DNA from: Parcubacteria group bacterium GW2011_GWF2_45_11
GTDB taxonomy: Bacteria > Patescibacteriota > Patescibacteriia > UBA1558 > UBA10009
NCBI GenBank assembly: GCA_001001205.1
Contig: LCKE01000006.1
Span: 1-33,045 of the forward strand
Length of the DNA: 33,045 bases
Reading direction: 5' to 3'
The position numbers were made by a program, and so were the translations under genes. The notes beneath the pieces were generated by a model. The model ran no database searches. It was not told where the DNA came from and saw only the letters and a program-made list of their open reading frames with translations. Each line of letters begins with the position of its first letter. Within the stretch, counting starts at the first letter, position 1. Positions 4,788 to 29,733 of this stretch are shown piece after piece.

Positions 4788-4805
4788 AAACTCGGGATAG
4801 GTCGC

Positions 4806-4846
4806 AAATAGCCCGCTAATGACACACGAAGATTCGCGGGCTATTT
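4806..4846. repeat. 11-bp perfect inverted repeat (AAATAGCCCGC / GCGGGCTATTT), 19-nt loop
   Basis: Read directly in the intergenic gap 4788-4863. No strong U-tract follows it, so it is not called a terminator. Confidence 0.75.
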
Positions 4847-4863
4847 ATGCACAGTTTGCGCTA

Positions 4864-5835
4864 TTATAAAGTGGTAATTGGCCTAGACTGTAAAATATAA
4901 AACTTATTCTTGGCGATGGCCCATTCAACATCCTGAGGACAGCGGTAATGCCGCTCAATATGTTTAATGATTTCGGCCAGCTCCATAATCTGTTTGCCGC
5001 TCAGCTTTTGCTTAGCCTGTCTTGCTTTAGGGACGGGCTTTAAAACGCTACCGCCAGCAGGCTTCATGACAATCTGTTTTTCCTGGGCGCTGATATTGAT
5101 GTCTAAAATCGTACCCTCTTTTTTATGAACAACGTAAGAATCCGGAGTAATGGTGCCGGAAACAATGGCTTCGCCCAAGCCGTAGCCGGCCTCAATAATC
5201 AATTGATTTTTATCCCGCGTCACGGGATGGACCGAAAAAGCCACGCCGGAAACTTCGGAATCCACCATCTGCTGGACCACCACGGCCACGCTGACCGAAA
5301 TTTTTAACAGTTTTTTTTCAAAGCGATAAAAAATCGCTCGGGGCGTAAATAAGGAGGCCCAGCACTTTTTGACCGTTTTAACTAAATCTTTCTCTCCGAC
5401 ATACAAAAAGGTATCCAATTCCCCGGCCCAGGAAGCGATTTTGGAATCTTCGGCCGTAGCTGATGACCGAACGGCCACCCATTGGCATTTCATTTTTTTA
5501 AACTCCTGTAAAACGGCCGCGGAAATATTGGCGGGCATCTTGGCGTCCAAAATCATGTCCTGAATGACATGGGAAGCCCGGTCAATGGAGCTTATGTCCT
5601 GATAATTGACTTTGCCCAGCTCCGCTTCAATAAAAACGTTAAGATCGCCCTGTCCGGGACCAACTGGCGGCGGCGTCTCATTTAAAAACGCGTCAAAAGC
5701 CGAGGCTAATACCACGTAACCGGGCGGCACCGGCAGTTTGGCGTTGGTCATTTCGCCCAAAGAAGCGCCCTTGCCGCCGGCAATGTTGACACTTTTAAAA
5801 TTTAGTTTGCCAAATGGCAGAATATCCTCTTTCAT
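4864..5835 (-). CDS. Stand-alone PEP synthase/PPDK/rifampin-phosphotransferase-type ATP-grasp domain
   Basis: GGKGASLGEMTNAKLPVPPGYVV, VAVRSSATAEDSKIASWAGELDTFL, SGVAFSVHPVTRDKNQLIIEAGYGLGEAIVSGTITPDSYVV and terminal DVEWAIAKNKFYILQSRPITTL. It stops at the end of the PPDK_N-type domain, with no His or TIM-barrel domain. Confidence 0.92.
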   Translation of the reverse strand: MKEDILPFGKLNFKSVNIAGGKGASLGEMTNAKLPVPPGYVVLASAFDAFLNETPPPVGPGQGDLNVFIEAELGKVNYQDISSIDRASHVIQDMILDAKMPANISAAVLQEFKKMKCQWVAVRSSATAEDSKIASWAGELDTFLYVGEKDLVKTVKKCWASLFTPRAIFYRFEKKLLKISVSVAVVVQQMVDSEVSGVAFSVHPVTRDKNQLIIEAGYGLGEAIVSGTITPDSYVVHKKEGTILDINISAQEKQIVMKPAGGSVLKPVPKARQAKQKLSGKQIMELAEIIKHIERHYRCPQDVEWAIAKNKFYILQSRPITTL

Positions 5836-5854: not shown

Positions 5855-5860
5855 ATTATA
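5855..5860 (-). promoter_or_regulatory. Candidate -10 element (TATAAT) for the stand-alone ATP-grasp gene
   Basis: Minus strand reads ...ATTTTATGGTATAATTAACTACG...ATG, about 20 nt upstream of the start. The -35 is weak. Confidence 0.5.
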
Positions 5861-5953
5861 CCATAAAATTATCCTTTAATGAAAGGGTGTGGCATTCCAA
5901 AGATACAAGCGCCTTACACTACCTTTTCGCGGGTCTGGATAGCATAACTCACT

Positions 5954-6580
5954 TTACAAACTCTTTTCATTTTTTAAAACGTCTAACAAGCTCCCCGCGA
6001 CCAAATAATTTTCTACTTTATTAATGCCTGAGTCATCATTTTTTAAGTGGTAACCTCGGACATGCAAATCCGATAAATTTAATTCACCGGCCGCGCCGTA
6101 AAAATCTTTAACGCTCTGAACTTTATCATCGGCATATACTATTTCCCTGTAACCTTCATGATATTTTTCTTTCAGCCACTTAAGCCAGAACGCTTCATTC
6201 TTACCATTTTCTGTCGGGTCATCATGATAATTAAAAGTACTAATGACCCCTTTAATGTATTTCATGATGTCAAAACCCTCATAAAACAAGATGATTGCCC
6301 GGCGTAAGCTTGTTTGCTTGACCGTACCGGTAGTAACCACAAAATTATTTTTGGTCCATTCTAACAATTCTTTGAAGCCGTCATTTGCCCAAACCTTAAA
6401 ATATTCCTTTTCATAAGCTTCTTCATCGGCCCTCTCATCATCTAATTTATTATAGCGTCCGTCGGGAAATTTGGATAATAAAAAATCCTGATAAGTCTTC
6501 AATTGGGGATGCTGCCATTTTTCCGGAAACAGGGTATTGCCGGCGTCCCAAAGATAAAGCTTTTTATTTTGGCTCTTCAT
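5954..6580 (-). CDS. HAD-like hydrolase (divergent motif I)
   Basis: N-terminal LYLWDAGNTLF and distal IVYADDKVQSVKDF resemble HAD motifs I and IV. 208 aa; 17-nt overlap with the upstream gene. Confidence 0.6.
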   Translation of the reverse strand: MKSQNKKLYLWDAGNTLFPEKWQHPQLKTYQDFLLSKFPDGRYNKLDDERADEEAYEKEYFKVWANDGFKELLEWTKNNFVVTTGTVKQTSLRRAIILFYEGFDIMKYIKGVISTFNYHDDPTENGKNEAFWLKWLKEKYHEGYREIVYADDKVQSVKDFYGAAGELNLSDLHVRGYHLKNDDSGINKVENYLVAGSLLDVLKNEKSL

Positions 6581-7598
6581 CTTGCGGTTTAAACCTTACT
6601 TCCGCCTTTTTTGCCAACTCCCTGACCTTGTCCCAGTCAAGGTAGACTTTTTTGCCTTTAAAAAATTCCGCGCGCTCGGGATCGGTAAACTGATATTCAA
6701 ACCGTGTATCATCTTCAAGATGTTCCAAATCTTTATTTTCTAAACCTTTGCTTAAATCCCTTTTGGCGATAATGCGGAAAGCCGTGGCCTGTTTGGTAAA
6801 ACCGCCGATTTCATCCACGTCGTCAAAACCGACTTTTTTTTCACCGGTTTCTAAATCTTCAACAACTAAAGCGTATTTAAATAAAGATTCGGCGAACATG
6901 CCGCTGCCAACGTTAGGAATGGCCGCGACCTTGTCAACCTTCACACCGCGTCTGAACAATTTCATAATATGCATAAGCTCTAAAGCCTCATTCTCTGCAG
7001 CAATGCCGGTAGCCTCATCATCTTCCATAGCCTCTTTTAAACCAGCAATTTGAGCTTGTTCGCGATATTTGGCACGCAACTCTTTATTTTCCGGCTTAAT
7101 AAATTCCTCTTGCTGTTCCGGGGTTAAACTACTGACTATCTTATTCAATTCATTTTTAATAACGTCTTTTACTCTTCTTAATAATTCCATGGACATGCCG
7201 CTGGTTTTGTAATCCAATCCAAGTCCCCGGCGCGAACCTTTAACTGTACCGGGTTCTACCTGGCTCATCACTGGCGCCGCCACTGGCCTTAAATCACCCG
7301 ATGTACTAAAACCAAACCTGTGGCTGCCAGAAACTATATCTTCACCGGTTTGTCCATGACGCTCTTTTTCCCCCCGCGGATGAACTAACGTTATGTCATC
7401 GGGGTAATTTGCTCCAAAATCTTTGGAGCCGTCCCGCCCCCGCAAAGTTAAGGATTCCTCGTCATCAAATTCATATGCCTGACCGCCTACTTCCACTTTC
7501 ATCTTGCCGCCAAACCTGTTGCCATGACGCGTTAGATCAATGTAAGTTGTAGCAATCTCTGACTCTCTTGGCTCTAATTTTGGTTCGCCTAATTCCAT
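6564..7598 (-). CDS. Histidine-phosphatase (phosphoglycerate-mutase-like) superfamily protein, divergent
   Basis: TTYIDLTRHGNRFGG resembles the RHG motif and SLTLRGRDGSKDFG the LTxxGxxxA segment; 344 aa. Confidence 0.6.
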   Translation of the reverse strand: MELGEPKLEPRESEIATTYIDLTRHGNRFGGKMKVEVGGQAYEFDDEESLTLRGRDGSKDFGANYPDDITLVHPRGEKERHGQTGEDIVSGSHRFGFSTSGDLRPVAAPVMSQVEPGTVKGSRRGLGLDYKTSGMSMELLRRVKDVIKNELNKIVSSLTPEQQEEFIKPENKELRAKYREQAQIAGLKEAMEDDEATGIAAENEALELMHIMKLFRRGVKVDKVAAIPNVGSGMFAESLFKYALVVEDLETGEKKVGFDDVDEIGGFTKQATAFRIIAKRDLSKGLENKDLEHLEDDTRFEYQFTDPERAEFFKGKKVYLDWDKVRELAKKAEVRFKPQDEEPK

Positions 7599-7615: not shown

Positions 7616-8221
7616 TTAATGTATTGCCTTTGCCAATTCTTCCTTAAACTGTTGAAAATTGTTTTTATAAATAATAATCCGCATGCCCGATTCCTTGGCG
7701 CCATCAATCCTGTCTGGCCGGTCATCAACATAAATAGATTCCTCCCCTTGGATGCCGGCCTGCGCCAGAGCTATTTGAAACATTTTTTTATCCGGCTTAC
7801 GTTCATGAATGTAGCAGGAAACAATTTTATACTTGACGGACTCGTCCAAATTAACTTTCTTCATCAGCGACTCAAACACTTCTTTAGAATTATTGGAAAT
7901 TATTCCGATATTGTAATGAGGGGCGAGATCTTGCTTAATATAATTAATGAGCTCAATATTAGGAACGGTCGCTTCATTTATCAGCTCAATAAAGCGGCGG
8001 GCGTTAAAAAAGTACTCCCGGGCGCGCTTCTGACACATGGCTAAATACTCTGCCTGAGTGATTAGCCCTAAAGTAAAATCTTCCCAACCTTGATGATCAT
8101 GAACAATCTTGTAAAATTCGCCCTTGGGGATGTTAAATTCCTTTTCATAATTTTGAACGCCTAAAGTATAACCCTCTTGACAGAGCACGCCGCCGTTATC
8201 AAAAAAAATTGCTTTGGTCAT
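7616..8221 (-). CDS. HAD superfamily hydrolase
   Basis: AIFFDNGGVL (motif I), IGIISNNS (motif II), RKPDKKMF (motif III), SIYVDDRPDRIDGAKESGM (motif IV); 201 aa. Confidence 0.88.
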   Translation of the reverse strand: MTKAIFFDNGGVLCQEGYTLGVQNYEKEFNIPKGEFYKIVHDHQGWEDFTLGLITQAEYLAMCQKRAREYFFNARRFIELINEATVPNIELINYIKQDLAPHYNIGIISNNSKEVFESLMKKVNLDESVKYKIVSCYIHERKPDKKMFQIALAQAGIQGEESIYVDDRPDRIDGAKESGMRIIIYKNNFQQFKEELAKAIH

Positions 8222-8228
8222 TTATGAT

Positions 8229-8783
8229 TTATTTAGCTTTTTTGAAAAAATATTTAAGATCTGTAATCGTCGGCTCGGTCAATTTTATTTTTTTATCCTG
8301 ATATAATCGCCAAATCCCGTTTATTTCAAAAGCTTTGATTTTTTCAACCTCTTCCGCGTTGATGGCAAAAGGACCGTTGTAGTCGCCGACAAAAACATAA
8401 ATAAACATGCTGCTGGTATTTTTGCTCTGATGATATAAAATTTTCTTGAATTTGAAATTAATGTCAATGCCTAATTCCTCCTTAAGTTCTCTTTTGGCTT
8501 CGGCTAAAATCTGTCGTTCGGAATCCGCGCCCGCCTTAACATAACCGGCAGCGGCGCAAGACCAATGAAGAGGCTGAATATCCTTATTTTTGCTTCTTTT
8601 CTGAAACCAATATTCGCCTTTTGAATTCTTTAACCAGACATGACAGCTTCTTCTGATTAAAACAGGATTTTCTAAAAATTCTATTCGCCGGGCTTGGCCG
8701 ATAACCTTATTTTTCTTATCGACATTATCATGCCATTCCAGAAATGAGTCGGTTAACTTTTTATTATAATTTGTCTTAACCAT
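8229..8783 (-). CDS. NUDIX hydrolase, IPP-isomerase-like subgroup
   Basis: RRSCHVWLKNSKGEYWFQKRS and Nudix-box end RELKEELGI; 184 aa. Confidence 0.85.
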   Translation of the reverse strand: MVKTNYNKKLTDSFLEWHDNVDKKNKVIGQARRIEFLENPVLIRRSCHVWLKNSKGEYWFQKRSKNKDIQPLHWSCAAAGYVKAGADSERQILAEAKRELKEELGIDINFKFKKILYHQSKNTSSMFIYVFVGDYNGPFAINAEEVEKIKAFEINGIWRLYQDKKIKLTEPTITDLKYFFKKAK

Positions 8784-10280
8784 TTAAGCTCTTTTAATAA
8801 TCTTGACTATCCCCTTTTGGGCGTCAATTTCCAATAAATCATTATCCTTGATGACTCTGGTGCCGTTTTTGGTGGCGATAACGCAGGGCACGCCCAGCTC
8901 CCGGGAAACAATGGCGGCGTGGGATGATAAGCCGCCCTGATCGGCGACAATGGCGGCGGCCTTTTCCATAGCCGGCACAAAATCAGGCGTAGTATACTGG
9001 GCAACTAATATGTCCCCTCTTTCAACCTTATAAATTTCCTCCTTATCCAAACATACTTTGGCTCTGCCTTTAATAATTCCGCCTAAACAGGCCATCCGGC
9101 CATGAATCTCTTCGGTTTCAGCCACCTCTACCGAATATTCATTTTCCAGCTCCTTAATCTCTTTAAGATCTGTAATAAGCCGAGTCTCGGCGCCTCTAAC
9201 TATCATGGCATAATCATGAAAACGAATGTTCATTTCCGCCTCATCCGGCAAGGCCGCGCCTTGTTTCAAAAAATTTATCATCTCTGGTACGGATATTTCC
9301 ATAATCCAATCCTGATTAAAATTAGCCCGCTTAGCCACCTCTGCATAAGCAAAGCTGGCGCCGTAATCGGCATTAAAAAAAGCTTCAACGCGTCGATTAC
9401 GTAAATATGAATGTAATCTGGCCAAATCAATCACCCTTTGGAGATCAGGCTTTGGCTTTACCTGTTCTAAAGCCCGCCTATATTCACTTTCAATTTTACC
9501 CGCCGAGGCTTCATAAATTAAATCATCTATCACCTTGCCATCAGCAACTTGCTGTTTCATCTCCTTAACGCGTTCAATTATATCGGCAAAAGAATAAGGC
9601 TTACTGGTAGCCAGCCCCCTGTTAATATAAGCGAACTTATCCAGATGATCGTTCAATCTGGAAATTGTCTCGCCGGACAAGTTGTCTAAATCTTCATTAT
9701 GATCAAAAATGTCCTTAGCTATTTGAGTAAGTTTCCAGCGTTCTTCCGCCACTTCGGTCATTTCCTTAGGATCGGTAAAAATCAAAACATACCTACGAAA
9801 ATTTTTGTCATCCGCTTTCAGATAATTCAGTAATTTTTTTTCAATGATATCTTCAAAATATTCATCCAAAGAATACTGAGCATACCACGGACAAGCCAGC
9901 TCCCGGTATTCCTGCAACAAAGGCCCAATAATTTCAACAATTTCCTGATTGGATTTTTTGCTCCAGTCTGTTTTTTTTAATTCCAAACCTTTCTGATATA
10001 AATGCTCAGATTTTTTTAACTCTTGCTGGCAATAATTCTCAAACCAGCCATCGTCGGTTTTCATGTGATTAATAATCTCGTCTTCAAAAGCATTATACTC
10101 GCTGGCGGGCCAATACATCATATGATGCAAATACGTTCGGTTAGCCAAAACCGTTTTAATACCCGCCTTATGAGCATTTTCCCTGGTAAAAGAAGAATTA
10201 ATCATAAATCGTAAGAAAATGGGCAACCGGCCCGAAGGCTTAATCCGCCATTTTCCTGAATGCATGACTGCTCCCGGCAT
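8784..10280 (-). CDS. Paralog A: helical domain + C-terminal PEP-utiliser swivelling-His domain
   Basis: C-terminus GRAKVCLDKEEIYKVERGDILVAQYTTPDFVPAMEKAAAIVADQGGLSSHAAIVSRELGVPCVIATKNGT; no ATP-grasp; 498 aa. Confidence 0.85.
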   Translation of the reverse strand: MPGAVMHSGKWRIKPSGRLPIFLRFMINSSFTRENAHKAGIKTVLANRTYLHHMMYWPASEYNAFEDEIINHMKTDDGWFENYCQQELKKSEHLYQKGLELKKTDWSKKSNQEIVEIIGPLLQEYRELACPWYAQYSLDEYFEDIIEKKLLNYLKADDKNFRRYVLIFTDPKEMTEVAEERWKLTQIAKDIFDHNEDLDNLSGETISRLNDHLDKFAYINRGLATSKPYSFADIIERVKEMKQQVADGKVIDDLIYEASAGKIESEYRRALEQVKPKPDLQRVIDLARLHSYLRNRRVEAFFNADYGASFAYAEVAKRANFNQDWIMEISVPEMINFLKQGAALPDEAEMNIRFHDYAMIVRGAETRLITDLKEIKELENEYSVEVAETEEIHGRMACLGGIIKGRAKVCLDKEEIYKVERGDILVAQYTTPDFVPAMEKAAAIVADQGGLSSHAAIVSRELGVPCVIATKNGTRVIKDNDLLEIDAQKGIVKIIKRA

Positions 10281-10336
10281 AATTTTATAAGTTAATAATC
10301 AATCAGAAATATAGGAACTCTTCATGAGTGATATTC

Positions 10337-10342
10337 ATTATA
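10337..10342 (-). promoter_or_regulatory. Candidate -10 element (TATAAT) upstream of paralog A
   Basis: The 102-bp gap between B and A is the largest spacer in the array and contains TTAATATAATGAATATC on the minus strand. Confidence 0.35.
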
Positions 10343-10382
10343 TTAACAAATCAACTGCCATAATTCAAGTGAGATAAACTGA

Positions 10383-11873
10383 TTATTTGAGCAACCGGAC
10401 AATGCCCTGAAAAGCATCAACCTCAACCTCGTCACCGTCATTAAGCCGATTTGTCGCTACTTGAGTCCCAATAACACAAGGTATATTCAACTCGCGGCTT
10501 AAAATGGCGGCATGCGAGGTTATGCCACCCTCATCAGTCACAATCGCCCCGGCTTTTTTCATTATAGGCAAAAATTCCGGCCGGGTCATTTGGGTTACCA
10601 TAATGTCGCCTTTATTAAATTTTTTAAAATCTGACTTGGTAATAACAAGCTTTGCCGTACCTTTAATCTTACCGGCGCAGGCCGATACGCCCTGAAGGTT
10701 TTTAAATTGATGGTTAAAAACCCGTAAAAAAATGGCGTGAATCTCCCTCGCTTCTTGTCCGGAAACAATTTTAGCTTTTTTACTTTTTTCGTCCCACAAC
10801 AACAGATAATGTTTTTTTCTACATTCTAATTCACTGATATAGCCTGGAGAAAATTTAATATCAGTCAATTCTGATAGATCGGAAAATAACAACAACTCAG
10901 GTTTAATCTTATTTCTGCGGGCGATCTCTGTCCGTAATAAATCCATATAGAATTCATCAAGCATATTCCTGGCTTTACGGACCTCTCGCCAGTCAGATTG
11001 TTTAGCAAAAAAATAAAAAATGTTTTTAATGTGAGGCGGGAGTTTAGAGTTTTTTAATATCTGTTTTCGCATTTGCTGTTGCTTATTGTGAAAATCAATA
11101 ATTTTTTTCCTATCATGCAAATATTTTTGTTTGTTATTAATTATTTTTTTAAATTCTCCATAAAAATAATTAAGTGACAACAGCTTAGTTGACGCCCAAC
11201 TGTTTGCCGCCCAAAAATAATTTTTTTGAATAACAGACAGTTGCTTCAATATGCGCTGGCCTGGCTTATAATTTTTAAAATCACGCAAACTTTTCTTTGA
11301 TATACTTTTCATAGCAAAACTACCTTGATATCGTAAAAACAAATTTACAAGTTCTAATTTTAATTGGTGCAAATAACTTAAATTGTAAGGATACGTTAAG
11401 GCTTTCAATTGATCTTTGGAAAATTGACTGTTGATATTCTTTAAACTCTGATTTAAAATCTCTTCGCCGCAGGAATCAAATGATTCAATTAAGGCCCCGA
11501 CTTTCCAAAGATTAAATTGATTAGTAGAAAAATTTTTGATTAATTTAAAAAGTTGAGTATTAGAAAGCGTAGAAAAATCAACCTGATTAATTTTAGTTAT
11601 CGCCTGATTTGATAATGCCTGGCGCTGATTCCATTTAGCAAACAAAATATCAATATATTTTTTATTCTTTTTTTGTTTGGCCATCAATGAGTCTGCCATT
11701 TGTCTCTCTTTGGTCATATCAAGATAACCATAATTATTCTCGCCCTGATTATATGAACAGCCGGCGTAATACGTCATGGCCGCCCGATATGGTTGATTTG
11801 AGTAATAAGGCATTATGGCGCCGCCTTGGCGGTACCACTTGGTTTTAGAAATTATTTTATAATTAATTTTCAT
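10383..11873 (-). CDS. Paralog B: helical domain + swivelling-His domain
   Basis: C-terminus GDIMVTQMTRPEFLPIMKKAGAIVTDEGGITSHAAILSRELNIPCVIGTQVATNRL; 496 aa. MPYYSNQP is an alternative start. Confidence 0.88.
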   Translation of the reverse strand: MKINYKIISKTKWYRQGGAIMPYYSNQPYRAAMTYYAGCSYNQGENNYGYLDMTKERQMADSLMAKQKKNKKYIDILFAKWNQRQALSNQAITKINQVDFSTLSNTQLFKLIKNFSTNQFNLWKVGALIESFDSCGEEILNQSLKNINSQFSKDQLKALTYPYNLSYLHQLKLELVNLFLRYQGSFAMKSISKKSLRDFKNYKPGQRILKQLSVIQKNYFWAANSWASTKLLSLNYFYGEFKKIINNKQKYLHDRKKIIDFHNKQQQMRKQILKNSKLPPHIKNIFYFFAKQSDWREVRKARNMLDEFYMDLLRTEIARRNKIKPELLLFSDLSELTDIKFSPGYISELECRKKHYLLLWDEKSKKAKIVSGQEAREIHAIFLRVFNHQFKNLQGVSACAGKIKGTAKLVITKSDFKKFNKGDIMVTQMTRPEFLPIMKKAGAIVTDEGGITSHAAILSRELNIPCVIGTQVATNRLNDGDEVEVDAFQGIVRLLK

Positions 11874-13390
11874 TTCATTATCTTAACCACGCCGTGGTTG
11901 GCGTTAACTTCAACATAATCACCGTTTTTAAGGGTGGCGGTGGCAATCTTAGTGCCGATAACACAAGGCTTTCCTAGTTCCCGGCTGATAATGGCGGCAT
12001 GCGAGGTTATGCCGCCCTCATCCGTAACGATAGCAAGGGCTTTTTTCATGGCCGGCACAAACTCGGGCCTGGTCATGGGCGCCACCAAAATATCGCCGGC
12101 TCTAAACTGAGCGATGTCTCTGACTGTCCGGCAAATTGTGACCCTGCCCACAGCCTTGCCGACCGAAGCGCAAAGGCCGTTTAATTCTTTTTGATCATCT
12201 TTTTTTTCTTGCCCGGCAAGTTGTTTTTTAAAAATTTTATAATCACTACCGGAAAAAATTTTTATTTTTTTAGACAAACCTATAACCAAACAGCCGTGCT
12301 GGCGTCCGCTTAATTCAATTTTGTTTAACTTGGCTAAATCAGCCGCCCAGATCTCTTGCGGTAAAGCGTAACGCATCAACGATATGGGCAAATTAAAGCG
12401 GTCACCTATTTCTTTTAATAATTCGTCCAAATAATGAATAGCGATTAAGAAAAATTTTTTACGGTCATCCTGCCAATAGGACATTATATCAGACATTTTA
12501 AACATTTTGACAAAACCGCGGCCGAAGCCGTATTTTTGAACTGCTTTATCTTTAGCCTTTTTATTCTGTTTAAAAATATTTTTGTAATAACTTAAGCCAT
12601 CCTTTATGCCCGTTTTAACTTCGTTGAGAAAATAATTTATGGTTAAAACTTTAGCGCCGCTATAATTATTATGCATCCAAAAAAAATTTTCTTGAAGACC
12701 GTAAATCATGCCTTTTAATTTAGGCTGCTGGCTGAGATATTTAATTATCTCACGATTGCTTAATTTAAAAATTTTTGACAACTTTTGTTTGTTAATTTCT
12801 TTAATAACATCAGACAAAGCTTCAATCATCTCATGAAAAAAGGTTGGCCTAATCGGCTGAGTCAAAACATTAAAAACTTTATTAAAATCCTGCCCTTTAT
12901 TTTGCCGTTCCAGCTCTTTGAACAGTTGATTCTTAATCTTAATATCGGCGGTTAAGGTAAAGCCTTCAATAATGTGAGAAATACTGATCGGTTTAACATA
13001 ATAATCATACGCCTGATGATATAAGCCAATTAACTCCGGTGTGGGCAGCTGATCCAGGCGCAACGAATCAATGCGCCGGAAAAACTTATAGGCCTGTTTA
13101 GTCAACCGGTCGCTTCTTTGCACTAACAACTCTAAATATTTGGGATTCTTTTTAACTTTAGCGAAAAGTTGATGAGCGATATGATGCAGATCATCCCGAT
13201 CGTAATACATGGTGCCAAACCCGTTTTTATAAAAATTCAAAAAATGAGTATAGCCATAACCCAAATATTTCTTGCAGCCCTCAATCCCGGACATCGCGCC
13301 CATGGTCAACAAATTAGGGGTGGAATTAAAGCTTTGAATATACCACCTTCTTTTAAATAAATATGCAAATTTTTTTAAATCTGACTTCAT
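11870..13390 (-). CDS. Paralog C: helical domain + swivelling-His domain
   Basis: C-terminus GDILVAPMTRPEFVPAMKKALAIVTDEGGITSHAAIISRELGKPCVIGTKIAT; 506 aa; 4-nt overlap with B. Confidence 0.9.
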   Translation of the reverse strand: MKSDLKKFAYLFKRRWYIQSFNSTPNLLTMGAMSGIEGCKKYLGYGYTHFLNFYKNGFGTMYYDRDDLHHIAHQLFAKVKKNPKYLELLVQRSDRLTKQAYKFFRRIDSLRLDQLPTPELIGLYHQAYDYYVKPISISHIIEGFTLTADIKIKNQLFKELERQNKGQDFNKVFNVLTQPIRPTFFHEMIEALSDVIKEINKQKLSKIFKLSNREIIKYLSQQPKLKGMIYGLQENFFWMHNNYSGAKVLTINYFLNEVKTGIKDGLSYYKNIFKQNKKAKDKAVQKYGFGRGFVKMFKMSDIMSYWQDDRKKFFLIAIHYLDELLKEIGDRFNLPISLMRYALPQEIWAADLAKLNKIELSGRQHGCLVIGLSKKIKIFSGSDYKIFKKQLAGQEKKDDQKELNGLCASVGKAVGRVTICRTVRDIAQFRAGDILVAPMTRPEFVPAMKKALAIVTDEGGITSHAAIISRELGKPCVIGTKIATATLKNGDYVEVNANHGVVKIMK

Positions 13391-13391
13391 A

Positions 13392-14831
13392 CTACTTACT
13401 GAGTCTGGTGACGCTTCCCTCCTTAGTGTCCACGCTGACCAAATCGCCGTTCTTTAAAACGAACGTGGCGGTTTTGGCGTTAACTATGCAGGGAACCTTT
13501 AACTCGCGGCTGACAATGGCGGCGTGGCAGGTCATGCTACCGCCATCGGTAATGATCGCCTTGGCCTGACGCATGGCCACAATGTATTCAGGCGAGGTCA
13601 TGGGCGTAACCAAAATTTCGCCGGCTTTAAAATTTTTAAGCTGCTGAAAACTTTTAATAATCCTGACTCGCCCTTGCACTTTATCGCCCTGGCTGACAAC
13701 CAAACCCTTAATTTGCTTTATATATTCCGAGGATTTAATAAACCGGCCGGCGATCACTTTGGCTCTTTGATCAACTATGAATTTTAAGTTCTTATTGTCA
13801 TAATAAAAAATAAAATACTTACATTGTCTAGCCAGGGCAATGCCAGAAATTTTTTTATTATTCAAAACTGCGATAATCTCCGCAGGTAAAAAAGATTTTA
13901 ATTCGTTAAGGCTGTAAATGGTCCGCCGGGCAATTGACTTGAGCAATAAATCAAGATAATAGTCAATCTGCAAAATTAAAGCCTTTCTTTTATCCTGCCA
14001 GCAGATGCCATAGTCCAAACTTTCAATAATCGCCCGTTCCTGAACGTTTAATTTTAATTGTTTTATCAGCTTAGTTTTATTTTTAATAATCAAGCGGCGC
14101 TGATTGATGCGTGATGTAATCTTATCATTATCATCCCTGATGACTTTTAATTTATTTTTAAAAAAATTCAATGATAAAATTTTTGATTGATAATAATTAT
14201 TTAACAACCAAAAATATTTCTGCTGATGCTGCTTTAATTTATTCTGAAAAAGATCGGGTTGTCTTTTATATTGCAAAATTTTCAATAATTCAATTTCTTC
14301 CTCCTGATAAAAAGAAAGCTGTGCGGGGACGGTCAAGAGTTCGTAATATGCATTAAAATTTTCCGACTGACCAATCTTCCTGGTTAAAATATCCGCGACC
14401 AGTTTTTCCCCTCCCCAATTGCAAATCTCCGGGACTGCTCCGTGAACCCAAAATTGAATCAATAATTTTTGCCATTTTTTGAAAGTCTGTAAAAAATCAG
14501 CATCGCTTAAGGAATCCAGGTATTTTAAAGAAAACCTGATTTGCCAAACAAACAATTCCTTGGTCGCCTTTTTATAGGCAATTTCAACTTTTTGCCTGTT
14601 TTTTTTGTTCATCATCCAGCGATAAAAATTCTCCCGGCCGGATTTTTTCAACTCAGCCTCGCTATTAACCCAGGTTATGTAATTTTTATGAAATATAAAA
14701 TAAGTTTCGGGCCAGAAAAACTGGTATGTTTTCGGATATTCCTTAAAAACTGCCTGACTATAATAATATAACGGCAATATTCTTCCGCGAATCGGCCCCC
14801 ACTGATATAGCTCTGAATTGGGATTGATCAT
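13392..14831 (-). CDS. Paralog D: helical domain + swivelling-His domain with altered Gly loop
   Basis: C-terminus GEILVTPMTSPEYIVAMRQAKAIITDGGSMTCHAAIVSRELKVPCIVNAKTAT; 479 aa. Confidence 0.88.
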   Translation of the reverse strand: MINPNSELYQWGPIRGRILPLYYYSQAVFKEYPKTYQFFWPETYFIFHKNYITWVNSEAELKKSGRENFYRWMMNKKNRQKVEIAYKKATKELFVWQIRFSLKYLDSLSDADFLQTFKKWQKLLIQFWVHGAVPEICNWGGEKLVADILTRKIGQSENFNAYYELLTVPAQLSFYQEEEIELLKILQYKRQPDLFQNKLKQHQQKYFWLLNNYYQSKILSLNFFKNKLKVIRDDNDKITSRINQRRLIIKNKTKLIKQLKLNVQERAIIESLDYGICWQDKRKALILQIDYYLDLLLKSIARRTIYSLNELKSFLPAEIIAVLNNKKISGIALARQCKYFIFYYDNKNLKFIVDQRAKVIAGRFIKSSEYIKQIKGLVVSQGDKVQGRVRIIKSFQQLKNFKAGEILVTPMTSPEYIVAMRQAKAIITDGGSMTCHAAIVSRELKVPCIVNAKTATFVLKNGDLVSVDTKEGSVTRLSK

Positions 14832-16297
14832 AGCTTTTTAATGACTCCTTTATTAGCATCTACCTTGATCCTGTCCCCGCTTTTTAAGACTTTTGTCGCT
14901 ATTTTAGTGCCAATAATGCAGGGAATGCCCAGCTCGCGGCTGACGATAGCGGCGTGGCAGGTTAAGCCGCCTTCATCGGTTATAATTGCCGTTGCTTTAT
15001 TTAAAATTACTGTGTAATCCGGCCTGGTCATGGAAGCCACTAATATCTCGCCCTTTTTAAAATTTTTAAACTGTCTGGACGAGGTGATAACCCTGGCTCG
15101 ACCCTGAGCCTTTCCCTGATTAGCCACCACGCCCCGAATGACTTTAACGCTATAGTCTGTTTTTGGAAACATCCTCTGATAAAGCTGGCGGGCCTTAGGA
15201 TAAGCTAAAACGTCAATGCTTTTAGGCGTCACCACTACTACAGAACATTTCAGACGACGCCGCAACAATTCTTGATCAATCTTTTTAGTTTTAAAAGCCA
15301 GCGCAACCTCGGCGGGGGTCAGATGCTTCAACAGCCAGTAGTCAACTTTGGTCCTCTTAGATAATTCCCTGATAAACTGATCAATAATCCAGTTGGCGAT
15401 CATATTGGCCTGCTTGCGCTGATCCTGCCAGTAGCTAAAGTGGTCTAAAATTTCCAGACCCAAAGCCGTCTGCCGATCAAGGTTCAATTTTTTTATATAG
15501 AGATCTTTTTGCTTTTTAATATTTTTAAAGTCTGCCCGTTCCTTTTTTAAAACTGCCAAACAATCTTTCTTAATATATTTTTTAACTTCCTTGAGCCAAT
15601 AATTTTCGTCTAAATATTGGCTGCAAGTGTAATTATTGTGAAGCCAATAATAATTTTTAGTATGCTGAGCTAAATCTGATTTGATGTTTTGTCCTTGTTG
15701 TAATCTGGCGGCCATTTTTAAAACCGACCAATGGGCTTCTTTAATAAAAGATGGGTTGGTTGGTTGAAGTAAGATTTGATATATCTTATCCTTCTCTTTA
15801 TTGGATATATTCTTTAAGAATTTCAAAATTTGAGGTAACAAAGTTTTCTCGCTATATCCGTGATAGTGATCGGTTAAGAGAGGCAGAGCGTATTCCTGCA
15901 AATAAGTTTTGGAAAATTCTTCAAAAAGGTTGATGACTCTGCCGCGCGATAATCGGGATAAATTCAATTTATTTATTTTATTGACTAATTGATTGTAAGC
16001 ATGAATTTGCCGTTGCCATTTCTGATAAAGTTTCAAATAATACCGGCGGTTGCCCGATGCCTGTTTCATTAACAAATTGGATATCCGCAACATATCGCCG
16101 GCTTCATAAGCCCAAACAAATCGTTTATTAATGACAAAACATACGGTCACCCTGGCGCTAGTGGGAAAATAATCTTTTAAAAAGTAGGAGGAAGCAACGG
16201 CCGGATAATAAACGTTAAGCAGGCAACCGTCCCCCGCCTGCGTCCACCAGGCGGGATTTTTTATACCGAACAAATTTTTGTTTTTTAAATCAAGCAT
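14828..16297 (-). CDS. Paralog E: helical domain + swivelling-His domain
   Basis: C-terminus GEILVASMTRPDYTVILNKATAIITDEGGLTCHAAIVSRELGIPCIIGTKIAT; 489 aa; 4-nt overlap with D. Confidence 0.9.
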   Translation of the reverse strand: MLDLKNKNLFGIKNPAWWTQAGDGCLLNVYYPAVASSYFLKDYFPTSARVTVCFVINKRFVWAYEAGDMLRISNLLMKQASGNRRYYLKLYQKWQRQIHAYNQLVNKINKLNLSRLSRGRVINLFEEFSKTYLQEYALPLLTDHYHGYSEKTLLPQILKFLKNISNKEKDKIYQILLQPTNPSFIKEAHWSVLKMAARLQQGQNIKSDLAQHTKNYYWLHNNYTCSQYLDENYWLKEVKKYIKKDCLAVLKKERADFKNIKKQKDLYIKKLNLDRQTALGLEILDHFSYWQDQRKQANMIANWIIDQFIRELSKRTKVDYWLLKHLTPAEVALAFKTKKIDQELLRRRLKCSVVVVTPKSIDVLAYPKARQLYQRMFPKTDYSVKVIRGVVANQGKAQGRARVITSSRQFKNFKKGEILVASMTRPDYTVILNKATAIITDEGGLTCHAAIVSRELGIPCIIGTKIATKVLKSGDRIKVDANKGVIKKL

Positions 16298-17476
16298 TTA
16301 TTTGATAATTTTAACCACGCCGTGGTTGGCGTTAACTTCAACGATCTGGCCATCCTTTAAGACTTCGGTGGCGATTTTAGTGCCGATTATGCAGGGAATG
16401 CCCAATTCCCGGCTGACAATGGCCGCGTGGCAGGTGACCCCGCCTTCGTTGGTAACTACGGCTACGGCTTTTTTCATGGCCGGGATGTAATCCGGCCTGG
16501 TCATAACCGCCACCAACACATCGCCCGGCTTTATCTTATGACTGTCCTTGACGCTTTTCATAAGGCAGACCCGGCCGCTGGCCACGCCCTTGGAAGCTGA
16601 CATGCCCCGAAAATCATCCGGAATCTCTTTCTTATCACGCTTCAATAATCGTAACAAAATTTTATCGGCCTCGGGGCCGGAACTCAAATCAAAAGCATCG
16701 CCGACCTGATACCAAAGACAGCTTTTTATTCTGCGATTTAACTCGGCTTTAGCAGGTTTTAATTCAATATTTTCGCCAAATAAAGATAATATTTCCGGAT
16801 AAAGAAAATATTTCATCTGCAACAAGGAAAAGCCAAATCTCCTGCCCATTTCCGCCAAAATCAGACTAAGATAATGCGTATACCAGTAGGTTTTCTTTTT
16901 GCGCTGATCCTGCCAATAAGTAAAATCTTCGGAGATAACCAGGAGATTTTTAAAATAAGTCGGTAAATTTAATTCTTTCATTAATTTTTGTTTGGCCCGT
17001 TTATTTTGTCGCGGGATCTGGGCCAGCCTTTTTATTTCCCGCTCAAAGTCAACATCTTGTTTGACTAAGGCTAGCAACTCTTTCAGAAAAAACCTTAATG
17101 ATAAGACATTGTTATCCACGTAATTATTGCGAGTCCAAAAATGGTTTTGCTGATATTCATTTAATTTTAGAAAAATCTCGGAATATTTTTTTAATTTTTT
17201 TTCAATATCCGCCAGGCTGGCATTTTTTATGAATTTTATTAATGCGTGGTGTTTTTTTATCTCCAGGCCTATCTGTAAAAGCTTTATTTCCGCTTCAGCC
17301 ATAAATGACTGATGAACCGGCGCCGTCAGAATGGCAAAATAACGCTGGCGCTGTCGCTCCAATCCCTTAGCTTTTAGTAGCTGATTCAAGTTTTTAAAAA
17401 TATAATCGTCAGAGCCTAGAGCAAAACCGTCAATTAAAGAGCTTGAAGTTACGGCCTTGACGCTGTTATTCAGCAT
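16298..17476 (-). CDS. Paralog F, downstream part: most of the helical domain + swivelling-His domain
   Basis: C-terminus GDVLVAVMTRPDYIPAMKKAVAVVTNEGGVTCHAAIVSRELGIPCIIGTKIAT; 392 aa. The missing N-terminus is in ORF 17479-17871, one frame away. Confidence 0.88.
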   Translation of the reverse strand: MLNNSVKAVTSSSLIDGFALGSDDYIFKNLNQLLKAKGLERQRQRYFAILTAPVHQSFMAEAEIKLLQIGLEIKKHHALIKFIKNASLADIEKKLKKYSEIFLKLNEYQQNHFWTRNNYVDNNVLSLRFFLKELLALVKQDVDFEREIKRLAQIPRQNKRAKQKLMKELNLPTYFKNLLVISEDFTYWQDQRKKKTYWYTHYLSLILAEMGRRFGFSLLQMKYFLYPEILSLFGENIELKPAKAELNRRIKSCLWYQVGDAFDLSSGPEADKILLRLLKRDKKEIPDDFRGMSASKGVASGRVCLMKSVKDSHKIKPGDVLVAVMTRPDYIPAMKKAVAVVTNEGGVTCHAAIVSRELGIPCIIGTKIATEVLKDGQIVEVNANHGVVKIIK

Positions 17477-17478
17477 CT

Positions 17479-17871
17479 TTAAATAAATTTTTTTAAGCTC
17501 GCTATCTGATAATTTTTTAAATTCAGGCGGTCAATGCCATAACAGTATTGATAAAAATTTTTTTCATCAGTCTGCCATTTCTTTATAAGACCCTTACTTA
17601 AACCACCTTTCTGTTTACTCAAAACAATAAAATTATTAGTAATCCTTTTAATGTCCTGCTGATCAATATACCAGTCGCATGTATTATCTTTAAAAAATCC
17701 CCAGTGCCTGCCAAAACTACCCCAGACGAACTTTCTGGATTCCTTTTTTAATTCGGCTTCCGAAATTACCAATATAAATTGAGGGCAGCCGTCAAACCGT
17801 TGGTGATACCATTGATTCTTTTGAATAAATTTTTTATCTTGCTTTATTAAGCCGGGTTTAATTTTCATCAT
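17479..17871 (-). CDS. Paralog F, upstream part: N-terminal fragment
   Basis: 130 aa matching the N-termini of other paralogs (KNQWYHQRFDG...; NFYQYCYGIDRLNLK vs KFFRRIDSLRLD in C). Ends at a stop just after an A7 run. Confidence 0.75.
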   Translation of the reverse strand: MMKIKPGLIKQDKKFIQKNQWYHQRFDGCPQFILVISEAELKKESRKFVWGSFGRHWGFFKDNTCDWYIDQQDIKRITNNFIVLSKQKGGLSKGLIKKWQTDEKNFYQYCYGIDRLNLKNYQIASLKKFI

Positions 17872-17872
17872 T

Positions 17873-18208
17873 TTATTTCTTTATAATTTTTACCGAATTA
17901 TGATTGGCGTTAACTTCAACCAACTCGCCGGTTTTAAAAACTTTAGTGGCGTTTTGCGTGCCGACCACGCAAGGGACGCCTAATTCCCGGCTGACTACGG
18001 CCGCGTGGCAGGTCACGCCGCCTTTATCGGTAATAATCGCCCCGGCTTTTTTCATGGCCGGCACGTATTCCGGACTGGTCATTGAGGTAATTAAAACTTC
18101 GTCTTGCCTGAATTTCGCTAAATCGGCTAAATTTTTTATAATTCTGACCGGGCCGCTAAATTTACCGGCCGAGGCGATAACGCCCTGCAAAGATATCAGA
18201 TTATCCAC
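17873..18208 (-). CDS. Paralog G, downstream part: swivelling-His domain called as its own ORF
   Basis: 111 aa: GVIASAGKFSGPVRIIKNLADLAKFRQDEVLITSMTSPEYVPAMKKAGAIITDKGGVTCHAAVVSRELGVPCVVGTQNAT. The frame stays open upstream toward ~18290 without an ATG. Confidence 0.85.
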   Translation of the reverse strand: MDNLISLQGVIASAGKFSGPVRIIKNLADLAKFRQDEVLITSMTSPEYVPAMKKAGAIITDKGGVTCHAAVVSRELGVPCVVGTQNATKVFKTGELVEVNANHNSVKIIKK

Positions 18209-18278
18209 TTTTCCGGCCTCTGGAGCGGCCTCACGTTTAAATATGGCTTGAGCGGCCGGGCCTTCATAAATCTTAAAT

Positions 18279-19406
18279 TTATCTTTGAGACCAATATTCT
18301 ACAGAATATTTGTAGCGATTCTGCAATTTTATTTTTGATAGTCTTTGATTATTCAGCAAGGCTTTTTTTAATTCCGCCGGAGCGTAAAACCTGGCCTGGG
18401 TTTCGGTCAGGCCGAATCTTTTGGCAACTTCTTTAAAAACCGGCATTATTTGATAATGAGATTTTGTGAATTCTTCCTTTTTGTAATCAAGCAAGTAGGC
18501 GCAGGTTCGCAAAACTTTAAACAATTTTCTATGATAGTCGTCTATTTTATATTTTTTAATCAGTCGCCGGCGCGCGGCTTGAAGCTGGTTAAAATATTGC
18601 GCATCCTTTTTCAGCTTAACCGCCAAACCGCCATTTTTAACCATATCTTTTATAACTTTTAAAAAATAAGGCATTTTCCAGATATAGACGCCATAGTCAA
18701 AAGGCACCCAGCAATACTCGCGCTCATGGTTTTTTAACCGGTAATAAAGTTTGGGGTGACATCTTTTTAAGTCACTGGCGGTGATGCGTTGACGGCTGAA
18801 AAATTCAACCTGATTTTTATCTTTTTGAATATTTATAATAATTTTTAAAAGCTCGTCTGACTCTCTTTTAACAAAAGACTTTTCTTCGGGCGAAATCAGA
18901 TGATTATAATCTTCGTTTAAAAATTTTTGATTACCTAAATCGGCCTGCCCCTTAAGATAAGATTTTAGATAATCGCCTAAAGAGTCCTCAAGCCCGAGCG
19001 TGATCGGTTCGGCCCAAGAGTATATTTTATTATACAATTTTAAATACCGCTCAATAATTTGCCAAATCTGCCTGTTAGACAGCCCGCTTAATGATTTTTG
19101 AAAAACTGCTGAAGTAAAATTGGTTAATTCGGGTACCAGTTGTTCAAATTTTTTTCTAATTTCAAAAACATATTCGGGGTTATTTTTAGCTAATCTTAAG
19201 GCCTGCTGTGACACCTCGGCCATTTTGTCTGGCCAAGCATACCAATGCATGGCTCCGTTTTTGGTTAAGGCCACGGTACTGCCGAAATTAACTCCTGGTA
19301 AAACTTTAGTCATGCCGTAGGTATAAGCATAGCCCACTCCATAAATACCGGGCAAAATATAAGCGTGAGTTTTCTTTTGCACGAAAACGCGTTTGTTTTG
19401 TTTCAT
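18279..19406 (-). CDS. Paralog G, upstream part: helical domain without its His domain
   Basis: 375 aa aligning with paralog H throughout (LSNRQIWQIIERYLKLYNKI vs LSNQELIEIKNKYNNLYDQI; REYCWVPFDYGVY vs QKYKWILFDYSSI). Confidence 0.82.
   Translation of the reverse strand: MKQNKRVFVQKKTHAYILPGIYGVGYAYTYGMTKVLPGVNFGSTVALTKNGAMHWYAWPDKMAEVSQQALRLAKNNPEYVFEIRKKFEQLVPELTNFTSAVFQKSLSGLSNRQIWQIIERYLKLYNKIYSWAEPITLGLEDSLGDYLKSYLKGQADLGNQKFLNEDYNHLISPEEKSFVKRESDELLKIIINIQKDKNQVEFFSRQRITASDLKRCHPKLYYRLKNHEREYCWVPFDYGVYIWKMPYFLKVIKDMVKNGGLAVKLKKDAQYFNQLQAARRRLIKKYKIDDYHRKLFKVLRTCAYLLDYKKEEFTKSHYQIMPVFKEVAKRFGLTETQARFYAPAELKKALLNNQRLSKIKLQNRYKYSVEYWSQR
18293..18310. repeat. 8-bp perfect inverted repeat with 2-nt spacer (AATATTCT-AC-AGAATATT)
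   Basis: Read directly; abuts the frame break in paralog G. Confidence 0.85.
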
Positions 19407-20815
19407 ATTTTCTTTATAATCCCCAAATTAGCATCCACCTCCACTAAATCACCGTCTTTAAAAACCTGGGTGGCAATTTTAGTGCCGACAATGGAGGGTA
19501 TTTTTAATTCCCGGCTGACGATGGCCGCGTGGCAGGTTAAGCCGCCTTCATTGGTGACGATAGCGGCCGCTTTCTTTAACGCCGGCATAAAATCGGGCGT
19601 GGTGTTGCTCACCACCAATATCTGGCCTTTTTTAATTTTATTGTTTTCCTTGGCGCTTTTTAAATAGCAAACGGTTCCTCTGACTTTACCGGCAGACGCC
19701 GGCGTACCTTTAAGCTTATTAACCAAAGCCTGCTGATCAGCCCTGATATCTTTTACTATTTTTTGGGATTTCCCAAAATCTAAAAAATCAGCCCGCCCCT
19801 CATAAAATTTAATGACGGAAAATTTTTCACGGCTGGCGGCTATTTTTCCGGTTAAAGCCGGTTTATTCTCTAAAACGTCTTTTAGTTCGGACCATAAAAA
19901 CCATCTGACTTCCTCTAAGCTTAAACCTAGCCTGCGGCCGACCTCCTTATACAAAGGCGTGATGGCAAAATGAAAATGGGTTAAAATCTCTTTCTTTTTA
20001 TCCATTAAATAATACAGCTTGTCTAAAATATCCAAATAGTATTGAAACTTTAAATCAACTTTGTATTTTTTAATAATTCTAGACTTCTGTCTTTTAAGTT
20101 TAGCGTAGTCGGCAATCTCCGGAGGAGTTTTGCCAAAAACTCCGGCCCTTTTTTGAAAGTATTTTAAATTAACAATAATACTGGAATAATCAAATAAAAT
20201 CCATTTGTATTTTTGGTAATGCCGCTTTAATTGATTGTTTAGATAATCGGGAAACCTGGAAAATTTTTTAAATATTTTAAATAATTCTTGATTCTCTTTG
20301 CTTAAAAACGACTGATAGTTGGGGGTAATTAATAATTCAAACTCAGCCTCGGTTATTTTTTTCTGATCAATAAAGTATTCTTTTAAAACAGAATGCAGTT
20401 TTTCCTTTAAAAAATGAGGTAGCGGCTCGCCGTAAGGCAGAATTTGATCATAAAGATTATTATACTTATTTTTAATCTCAATCAATTCCTGATTGCTTAG
20501 TGAACGAAAATGGCTGGTCTCCAGTTCCTTAATAAATTTCTCAATCACTCTAGACCGCTGATCAAAAATGTCCTTCACTTTTGTTATATAAGCTTTATTT
20601 TTGGAAATTTTATTAAAAACATAATTAATGATTTCTTGATGTTTTGACTCGTAAGAATAAATTAAACACTGGCCTTTTTGATAAAGAAAAAATAAAGGCG
20701 CTTCACCGCTACCCACGGTTTTTTTAATATGGCCCGACCAGTTCCTGGCCACATTTTCCACGGCTAATGGCGGGTAATCCCCCCGTTCATGAATAAAATG
20801 ATATTTTTGAGTCAT
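19403..20815 (-). CDS. Paralog H: helical domain + swivelling-His domain
   Basis: C-terminus GQILVVSNTTPDFMPALKKAAAIVTNEGGLTCHAAIVSRELKIPSIVGTKIAT. The listed ORF starts at 20878, but MTQKYHFIHERG at 20815 lies just past the stop of the upstream gene and is the likelier start. Confidence 0.87.
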   Translation of the reverse strand: MTQKYHFIHERGDYPPLAVENVARNWSGHIKKTVGSGEAPLFFLYQKGQCLIYSYESKHQEIINYVFNKISKNKAYITKVKDIFDQRSRVIEKFIKELETSHFRSLSNQELIEIKNKYNNLYDQILPYGEPLPHFLKEKLHSVLKEYFIDQKKITEAEFELLITPNYQSFLSKENQELFKIFKKFSRFPDYLNNQLKRHYQKYKWILFDYSSIIVNLKYFQKRAGVFGKTPPEIADYAKLKRQKSRIIKKYKVDLKFQYYLDILDKLYYLMDKKKEILTHFHFAITPLYKEVGRRLGLSLEEVRWFLWSELKDVLENKPALTGKIAASREKFSVIKFYEGRADFLDFGKSQKIVKDIRADQQALVNKLKGTPASAGKVRGTVCYLKSAKENNKIKKGQILVVSNTTPDFMPALKKAAAIVTNEGGLTCHAAIVSRELKIPSIVGTKIATQVFKDGDLVEVDANLGIIKKI

Positions 20816-20816
20816 C

Positions 20817-22070
20817 TTAAATCTTTTTAAACACAAAAATTTCCCGCCTAACTCTCTGCCCAGGCCGCGCGTAAACAATGGACTTCCTGGGACAGTCGCT
20901 CAAAGGCAGACTGACAAAACCCAAACACTTGACGTCATTAATAATATCAACCGTTTGGTTATTAATAATCGGCAAGATAATCACCGCTTTCCCCTCTTTC
21001 TTTAAAACCTGATGAAATTGAGCAAAGGCTTTTAGGTATAATTTGGATAATTCATCTATTACATCAATTTCCGGGTTTGAAACTTGCGATTTAGAAGTTG
21101 AAATTTTTTGGCCAGCCGGCCGGACGGGCAGGTATTTTGCGTCCTGTGAGCTGGGGATTGCCCGGGCCGGCCCAAGATACGGCTCGGTCACAATAACGTC
21201 AACCGACTGCGGCTGTATTTTGGCCGAGAGGCTTTTAACATCCTGCTGAAAAATTTTAACCCCGGCAATGTCCTGTTGTAATTTGACTTTAAGCCATTCC
21301 AGATTATTAATGGTGTCGGACACGGCTTTGGCGGCAATATCCGAGCCAATGATTTTTTTATAGCCCAGCAACAGAGCCTCCTGAATGACCGTGCCTGAGC
21401 CACAAAAAGGATCCAAAATTGTCTGATCAAAACCGGCCCGGCCGAGGTTAATCATCATCTTGGCGAGCTTGGGCGGTAGCATGCCCGACTGATCGTCGCG
21501 CTGAGGCCGGCCATAATCCCTTTCGGAGTATTCCTGAAACTTTTGGGCGCTGACCGTGTAACCAAGATAATATTCTTTGCCTGAATTAATCACGACTACG
21601 TCGGCGCCCTGATCAATTAATTTTTCCTTGTGCACGATGACTGACGATAAGGCTGATTCTTTGGAAACCACGAACCTTGATCTGACTTTTTTTAACCGCA
21701 AGACTCTCTTGAGATTCAGACCGATCTGCTTAAGCTCTTTCATGTTCACTCGGCCGTAAGCGCTAAAACCGAACTGAAACCTTTTATTTTTTGCCGGCGG
21801 CTGTTGTTGGATAAGTTTTTCTATAATCTCCTGTTTGATACTTGATGCTTGAAACTTAAGGCTGGCTATCTTGATGGTCCCGCCCAGCCTTGCCTGAAGC
21901 CAATCAATCTCCGCTTTCCTCATGGCCAGCACCAAAACCTGCTCGTTATAAAAAAGCTCTTCAAAATCCAGGCTGGCGTGCTCCAAAATGGCCATGATTT
22001 CCGCTCTGGCTAAAGCCGGGACTTGCCCTAAAATAAAGGCGTATTTTACCTTATTTTGACTGAATATCAT
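20817..22070 (-). CDS. TRM11-like / RNA or DNA methyltransferase (SAM-dependent)
   Basis: ILDPFCGSGTVIQEALLLGYKKIIGSDI (SAM motif) and VDVIVTEPYLGP (catalytic-motif position); 417 aa. Confidence 0.8.
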   Translation of the reverse strand: MIFSQNKVKYAFILGQVPALARAEIMAILEHASLDFEELFYNEQVLVLAMRKAEIDWLQARLGGTIKIASLKFQASSIKQEIIEKLIQQQPPAKNKRFQFGFSAYGRVNMKELKQIGLNLKRVLRLKKVRSRFVVSKESALSSVIVHKEKLIDQGADVVVINSGKEYYLGYTVSAQKFQEYSERDYGRPQRDDQSGMLPPKLAKMMINLGRAGFDQTILDPFCGSGTVIQEALLLGYKKIIGSDIAAKAVSDTINNLEWLKVKLQQDIAGVKIFQQDVKSLSAKIQPQSVDVIVTEPYLGPARAIPSSQDAKYLPVRPAGQKISTSKSQVSNPEIDVIDELSKLYLKAFAQFHQVLKKEGKAVIILPIINNQTVDIINDVKCLGFVSLPLSDCPRKSIVYARPGQRVRREIFVFKKI

Positions 22071-25821: not shown

Positions 25822-25824
25822 AGG

Positions 25825-29670: not shown

Positions 29671-29733
29671 GACATTTCATTACGCGATGTTTGATCCTGG
29701 ATTAAGCCGGCGTTGACTAAAAAGTTTGCCGGA

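Follow-up and report, generated by a model that had tools for sequence, protein, structure and literature searches.

What does an ATP-grasp domain do when it is encoded as a protein of its own, with no His domain on the same chain to accept a phosphate? The question arises from a stretch of 33,045 nucleotides of Parcubacteria group bacterium GW2011_GWF2_45_11 (the window), which is contig C6 of a draft genome of 1.14 Mb in 69 contigs, 93 % complete (G000). A first-pass annotation had noticed there a PEP-synthase-type ATP-grasp domain as a stand-alone protein (AD), and had argued that it could find an acceptor only by working in trans. The nearest named relatives of the window are Patescibacteria, the best being a stretch also present in G003, followed by Buchananbacteria and Falkowbacteria. 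Here, we propose that the AD is the phosphoryl-donor subunit common to several acceptors, namely the RD-HD proteins, most of which are encoded in a nearby array (Table 1).

Table 1. Features of the window around the ATP-grasp gene and the RD-HD array
Feature	Coordinates	Strand	Support
Hairpin, 12-bp stem	4805..4847	(-)	Fold prediction; between AD stop and downstream 370-aa/PrgI/TraC operon
AD, stand-alone ATP-grasp (PPDK_N) protein, 323 aa	4864..5835	(-)	PF01326, E 1.2e-95
Extended -10 promoter TATGGTATAAT (putative)	5855..5865	(-)	20 nt 5' of AD start codon
HAD-like protein (LYLWDAGNTLFPE), cassette gene	5954..6580	(-)	No Pfam match; homologues adjoin RD-HD genes in G072, G276
RHG histidine-phosphatase-like protein, cassette gene	6564..7598	(-)	LTRHG motif
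HAD hydrolase, cassette gene	7616..8221	(-)	PF00702 1.5e-14; homologues in G276, L161
Nudix hydrolase, cassette gene	8229..8783	(-)	PF00293 1.8e-8; homologue in G276 cassette
RD-HD protein 1, 498 aa, array's most divergent	8784..10280	(-)	PF00391; RD vs G276 protein 578 bits
RD-HD protein 2, 496 aa	10383..11873	(-)	PF00391; RD model
RD-HD protein 3, 506 aa, overlaps protein 2 by 4 nt	11870..13390	(-)	PF00391; RD model
RD-HD protein 4, 479 aa	13392..14831	(-)	PF00391; RD model
RD-HD protein 5, 489 aa	14828..16297	(-)	AlphaFold pLDDT 91.7; best PDB match RPH, E 7.9e-14
RD-HD protein 6, frameshift-split (17479-17871 + 16298-17476)	16298..17871	(-)	
RD-HD protein 7, split: RD 18279-19406 (stop), HD 17873-18208 (other frame)	17873..19406	(-)	
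RD-HD protein 8, 491 aa	19403..20878	(-)	PF00391; RD vs G107 protein 325 bits

Anatomy and fold of the ATP-grasp protein

The AD lies on the minus strand, a point absent from the first-pass annotation. It covers model positions 2-311 of the 328 of PF01326 (321 bits), which bears out its description as a complete domain. Its reading frame had been said to begin at GGKGASLGEM; the motif is present, at residues 20-29, and the start lies 19 residues N-terminal of it, a spacing equal to that of Listeria rifampin phosphotransferase (RPH), with K22 numbered alike in both. As had been stated, the protein ends exactly at ...LQSRPITTL (L323). Being a solo frame with its own stop codon, it does not fulfil the single-chain AD-RD-HD layout of RPH, and no His-domain coding was found 3' of it in the 76-nt, hairpin-bearing intergenic stretch 4788-4863, in agreement with the first reading.

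The ATP-binding residues of the Listeria enzyme are K22, R117, T136 and also E297 (PMC4844700). In an alignment read by eye, with the RPH roles taken from that work, RPH K22, R117, T136, E297, Q309 and R311 correspond to AD K22, R123, T142, E304, Q316 and R318, the last two falling on the QSRP strand of RPH, and the recognisable motifs are retained, as claimed. Except for T142, whose position is occupied by Ser in some, these catalytic positions are invariant in 11 stand-alone homologues. The top PDB matches of the predicted structure (pLDDT 82.9) are the RPH ATP-grasp domain and then HpeI (9goj), so that the AD qualifies as a separate ATP-grasp polypeptide of the RPH/HpeI fold, as in two-component dikinases of the HpeHI type. 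Solo copies of the same length are present in dozens of genera.

The label "PEP-synthase-type" holds in so far as the ATP-grasp domains are homologous, but the AD is no piece of the canonical PEP synthase of its own genome. The latter is intact elsewhere (799 aa, contig C50) and falls outside the AD clade with 100 % support, and a truncated copy of it was rejected on these grounds. The full-length PEP synthase model reached only 310 bits on the AD, far below its cut-off of 598 and over the ATP-grasp part alone. While the AD clade itself is well supported, its branching with respect to the RPH, haloarchaeal two-component and PEPS-like references remained unresolved in our tree, which was built without HpeI, CreI and PpsB.

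Putative promoter and hairpin

The TATAAT previously placed about 20 nt upstream of the gene was located at 5855-5860 of the minus strand, as part of TATGGTATAAT. Because no good -35 box was found in a generic scan, this element would be an extended -10 promoter. The pattern occurs once in the window against 0.12 occurrences expected, the same element precedes the homologous AD gene in G003, G046, L089 and L111, and G001 carries a one-letter variant, TGTGTTATAAT, at its position. This single occurrence and conservation support a separate AD promoter in the lineage of G000, and with it the suggested expression apart from the array, albeit on sequence evidence. In many other genomes, the AD gene lies within an operon-like run together with an RD-HD gene. 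A terminator 3' of the AD is only weakly supported: the hairpin exists, yet its fold is no better than that of shuffled sequences (z only -0.92). No Rfam match was obtained for an RNA element in the region.

The array as a repertoire of putative acceptors

The array (8784-20878) consists of eight RD-HD units, each with a C-terminal PF00391 His domain (HD), two of them broken in frame: protein 6 comprises an RD fragment and an RD-HD remainder, and protein 7 an RD-only and an HD-only part. Either misassembly or gene decay could underlie these breaks. The model of protein 5 fits RPH along most of its length, its other significant matches being mostly to the His domain only, and the RD-HD profile matches RPH 446-866; thus, in RPH terms, the AD is one protein and RD plus HD another. 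Judged by model and profile, the RD-HD partners possess the RPH-like substrate domain and C-terminal His swivel domain that characterize the HpeHI type. As read from the translations, the catalytic histidine is kept in all eight HDs of the window.

To compare repertoires, 78 RD-HD proteins from 14 genomes were used, at least 75 of which carry the catalytic histidine according to a motif search. Both within and between genomes, their HDs share about 50 % identity and their RDs only about 17-18 %, and for 71 of the 78 the closest relative of the RD resides in another genome. This divergence, together with the scattered nearest relatives, makes the array a repertoire of different enzymes instead of local duplicates, and an origin by local tandem duplication was rejected. 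Arrays thus gather old and distinct enzyme types, which have probably been exchanged between genomes. Since HDs cluster by genome no more than RDs do, the within/between difference being as small for either domain, there is no sign of co-adaptation of the HDs to their own AD. Phage and plasmid cargo were also considered and dropped: a scan of viral contigs yielded one distant relative only, and every plasmid match was below 60 % identity.

Neighbouring genes

The closest relative of RD-HD protein 1 occurs in G276, a member of a different family, where it is surrounded by homologues of four cassette genes: the Nudix gene, the two HAD-like genes and the RHG-phosphatase gene. The RHG-phosphatase-like protein itself has no Pfam match, similar neighbours elsewhere weakly match His_Phos_1, and homologues lie beside RD-HD or AD genes in G276 (345 bits), L161 and L095. 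Genes of this kind recurrently adjoin AD or RD-HD genes in many genomes, at further loci (L046:8624-9568, L052:6623-7507, L049:7873-8775, L074:5634-6677, L080:8298-9155 and L070:2375-3295), and their products may act in the same pathway. The recurrence of RHG-phosphatase-like, HAD and Nudix neighbours suggests phosphorylated small molecules as a theme, without indicating any substrate.

Other neighbourhoods differ from locus to locus. Genes of the dTDP-rhamnose type (RmlA-, RmlB- and RmlD-like by reading) are interspersed with RD-HD genes at L048, L050 and L051 (G014, G017 and G025). At L076 and L078 (G107 and G072) the solo AD adjoins, again by reading, an apparent SAH hydrolase, a PfkB-type kinase, an adenine phosphoribosyltransferase and an MTA phosphorylase, a possible link to the AMP expected from the AD. 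Another recurrent neighbour of AD or RD-HD genes is a conserved gene encoding about 115 aa with a GDMVKAVVDIE motif (L077:5779-6126, L079:18563-18907, L073:804-1151). Finally, the window holds at 24535-33045 open reading frames of 428 aa, 1281 aa and over 1000 aa, the first without Pfam match.

Solo ATP-grasp genes travel with His-domain genes

A survey of solo ATP-grasp genes and RD-HD arrays, as the first-pass annotation had recommended, was run with a profile of solo ADs on 381 genomes of the phylum, in which nearly all members of the clade scored at least 450 bits and PEP synthases at most 377. His domains were present in all 44 genomes with solo-type or closely similar ATP-grasp matches, at a mean of 5.2 per genome, as opposed to 1.4 in the 44 control genomes (p = 1e-11, without correction for relatedness). 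Among the matches listed, every test genome except G251 and G339 had a His-domain frame outside the size of PEP synthase or PPDK. Across 53 relatives, RD-HD genes accompany intact solo ADs (for instance 12 in G000, 19 in G003, 11 in G017 and 7 in G014). Solo genes lacking any partner, which would have refuted a role in trans, were encountered only in G032 and G027, at contig ends or in incomplete genomes.

The association also holds at the level of loci. A sequence-only scan for named loci gave 80, of which 56 are solo and 24 fused. A His-domain gene lies within 6 kb at 50 of the 56 solo loci, which supports the inference that an AD without acceptor in cis acts in trans; three of the remaining six are on short contigs, and L124 is a contig of G107, whose array is on another contig. 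For 29 of 77 solo ADs an RD-HD gene directly adjoins on the same strand. Of the controls, G226 alone has an array, and the AD that directly precedes it is broken. In a few controls (G059, G080 and G064 are examples) no solo AD accompanies the stand-alone His-domain proteins, nor does one in G004, which has two such proteins but is only 72 % complete.

Fusion and joint loss

The 24 fused sister loci encode AD-RD-HD proteins. Five of these (1047-1311 aa) read AD-RD-HD-RD-HD, with two His domains, and are a covalent case of one ATP-grasp domain joined to two acceptor modules. Fused AD-RD-HD genes of this clade also stand on contigs labelled Micrarchaeota and Woesearchaeota (L160 and L162), which points either to gene exchange with DPANN archaea or to misbinned contigs.

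A fused enzyme at the AD locus of close relatives would have spoken against the first reading, and none was seen: among relatives of the same family, the gene is solo in G003 and a broken solo gene in G001. The latter genome, from the same family as G000, retains the matching flanks (the PrgI/TraC operon on one side and RNA methylase-rpsF-ssb-efp on the other), but its array is absent at the matching locus, its AD is frameshifted, and a single His-domain fragment of 48 aa is left. The AD of G046 carries a frameshift at another position, and no RD-HD gene was found in that genome. Neither AD nor RD-HD is present in G002, also of the same family, 96 % complete and in one contig. Frameshifts in G001 and G046 that coincide with loss of the partners are what a dependent subunit predicts, although assembly error is not excluded.

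A proposed shared donor for many acceptors

Precedents for a split enzyme exist in the two-component dikinases HpeHI, CreHI and PpsAB (PMC12167813). In HpeHI both parts are required and the acceptor histidine is essential, yet HpeH and HpeI work in trans without a stable complex (PMC12167813). Similar to our system, HpeHI, CreHI and PpsAB (phenylphosphate synthase) combine a separate ATP-grasp protein with a separate substrate/His swivel protein of RPH folds, conserve the catalytic histidine and are encoded by genes near each other. They differ in being 1:1, in their phenolic substrates and in acceptors of about 610 aa, whereas in the window system a single ATP-grasp protein is matched by about 12 acceptors, which measure about 340-510 aa and whose RDs are near 18 % identical. 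Furthermore, the residue before (Ser/Cys)-His in the His domains of the array is Thr, which PEP synthase shares, whereas it is Met in HpeH (PMC12167813). RPH shares the AD-RD-HD logic, is the best structural match of both parts and matches the domain order of the fused sister loci, but is a single chain with only one substrate domain and not a split, multi-acceptor system. PEP synthase (PpsA) has homologous ATP-grasp and His domains, and the NCBIfam PEP-synthase models give the top full-length scores, but the AD system lacks its C-terminal PEP/pyruvate domain and the AD forms a separate clade.

We consider it probable that the AD supplies the ATP-binding part of a split RPH-like dikinase and is the one donor for all RD-HD proteins. 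The AD would bind ATP and, with release of AMP and Pi, phosphorylate separate RD-HD proteins at the catalytic histidine of their His domains. By homology with HpeHI, each His domain would most likely be charged in a transient encounter; both this docking and the charging chemistry are inferred from homology. The charged domain would then swing to its own RD and hand the phosphate to a small molecule, each RD steering it to its own, unidentified substrate. Action of the AD in trans is well supported by comparative genomics (anatomy, catalytic residues, folds, co-occurrence, fusions and joint loss), without biochemistry. That one AD may serve the entire RD-HD set of the cell is inferred from gene numbers: beside its single solo AD, G000 encodes 12 His-domain proteins outside PEP synthase, eight in the array and four elsewhere, and the 1:1 ratio of the HpeHI type is replaced by 1:12, or 1:19 in G003. 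There is no direct evidence for this part, and some RD-HD proteins could be charged by PEP synthase or be inactive; the two frame-broken members of the array also count against a shared AD.

The alternative that survives best, though we hold it to be unlikely, is that the AD pairs with one RD-HD protein only, probably its cassette neighbour at 8784-10280, the others being charged otherwise (e.g., by PEP synthase) or inactive. Two-component dikinases have so far been described only as dedicated 1:1 pairs (PMC12167813), the haloarchaeal pairs found in this analysis are 1:1 as well, and in G014, G017, G025 and others the AD adjoins one particular RD-HD gene. Such exclusive pairing is difficult to reconcile with genomes that combine as many as 18 or 19 non-PEPS His domains with one or two solo ADs, with the rarity of large RD-HD sets in the absence of a solo AD, with the AD-RD-HD-RD-HD fusions that tie one AD to two modules, and with a catalytic histidine kept by nearly all His domains.

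Far less plausible is that the AD is a soluble ATP pyrophosphatase or a regulator to which His-domain partners are merely incidental. It is true that ATP-grasp mutants of RPH still hydrolyse ATP (PMC4844700), but this hydrolysis uses the His domain, and co-occurrence, adjacency, fusion and joint loss bind the AD strongly to RD-HD genes. Least credible of all is a functionless, decaying fragment of a formerly fused enzyme, for which the frameshifted copies of G001 and G046, the two broken array members and the full PEP synthase kept in the genome might be cited, but which fails to account for an intact frame ending exactly at the domain boundary with all catalytic residues, a promoter conserved in relatives, and the widespread same-length solo copies, among which the fused forms are nested in the tree and not basal.

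If one AD indeed serves the whole set, it is the RD-HD repertoire that determines the range of substrates. The shared-donor arrangement is reminiscent in outline of the PTS, in which one general donor (Enzyme I/HPr) supplies many substrate-specific acceptors (EII) via phosphohistidine, but here the expected donor is ATP and not PEP, and HPr, EII and membrane transport parts are missing. Tentatively, and with somewhat more doubt than confidence, we hypothesize a hub-and-spoke phosphorylation in Patescibacteria, where a generic ATP-to-histidine charger would operate with swappable, horizontally exchanged RD-HD acceptors, each phosphorylating its own small molecule, whether scavenged or toxic; this would be a soluble equivalent of the PTS for cells with very small genomes. 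What is new here is the one-donor-to-many-acceptors design, as two-component dikinases and the RPH fold were already known; we found no description of such an arrangement in CPR/Patescibacteria in the open-access literature searched. If true, a shared ATP-grasp protein with many divergent acceptors would represent a new, cheap route to many kinases, and would account for one of the larger gene families that lack an assigned role in some Patescibacteria, organisms that are missing most metabolic capacity.
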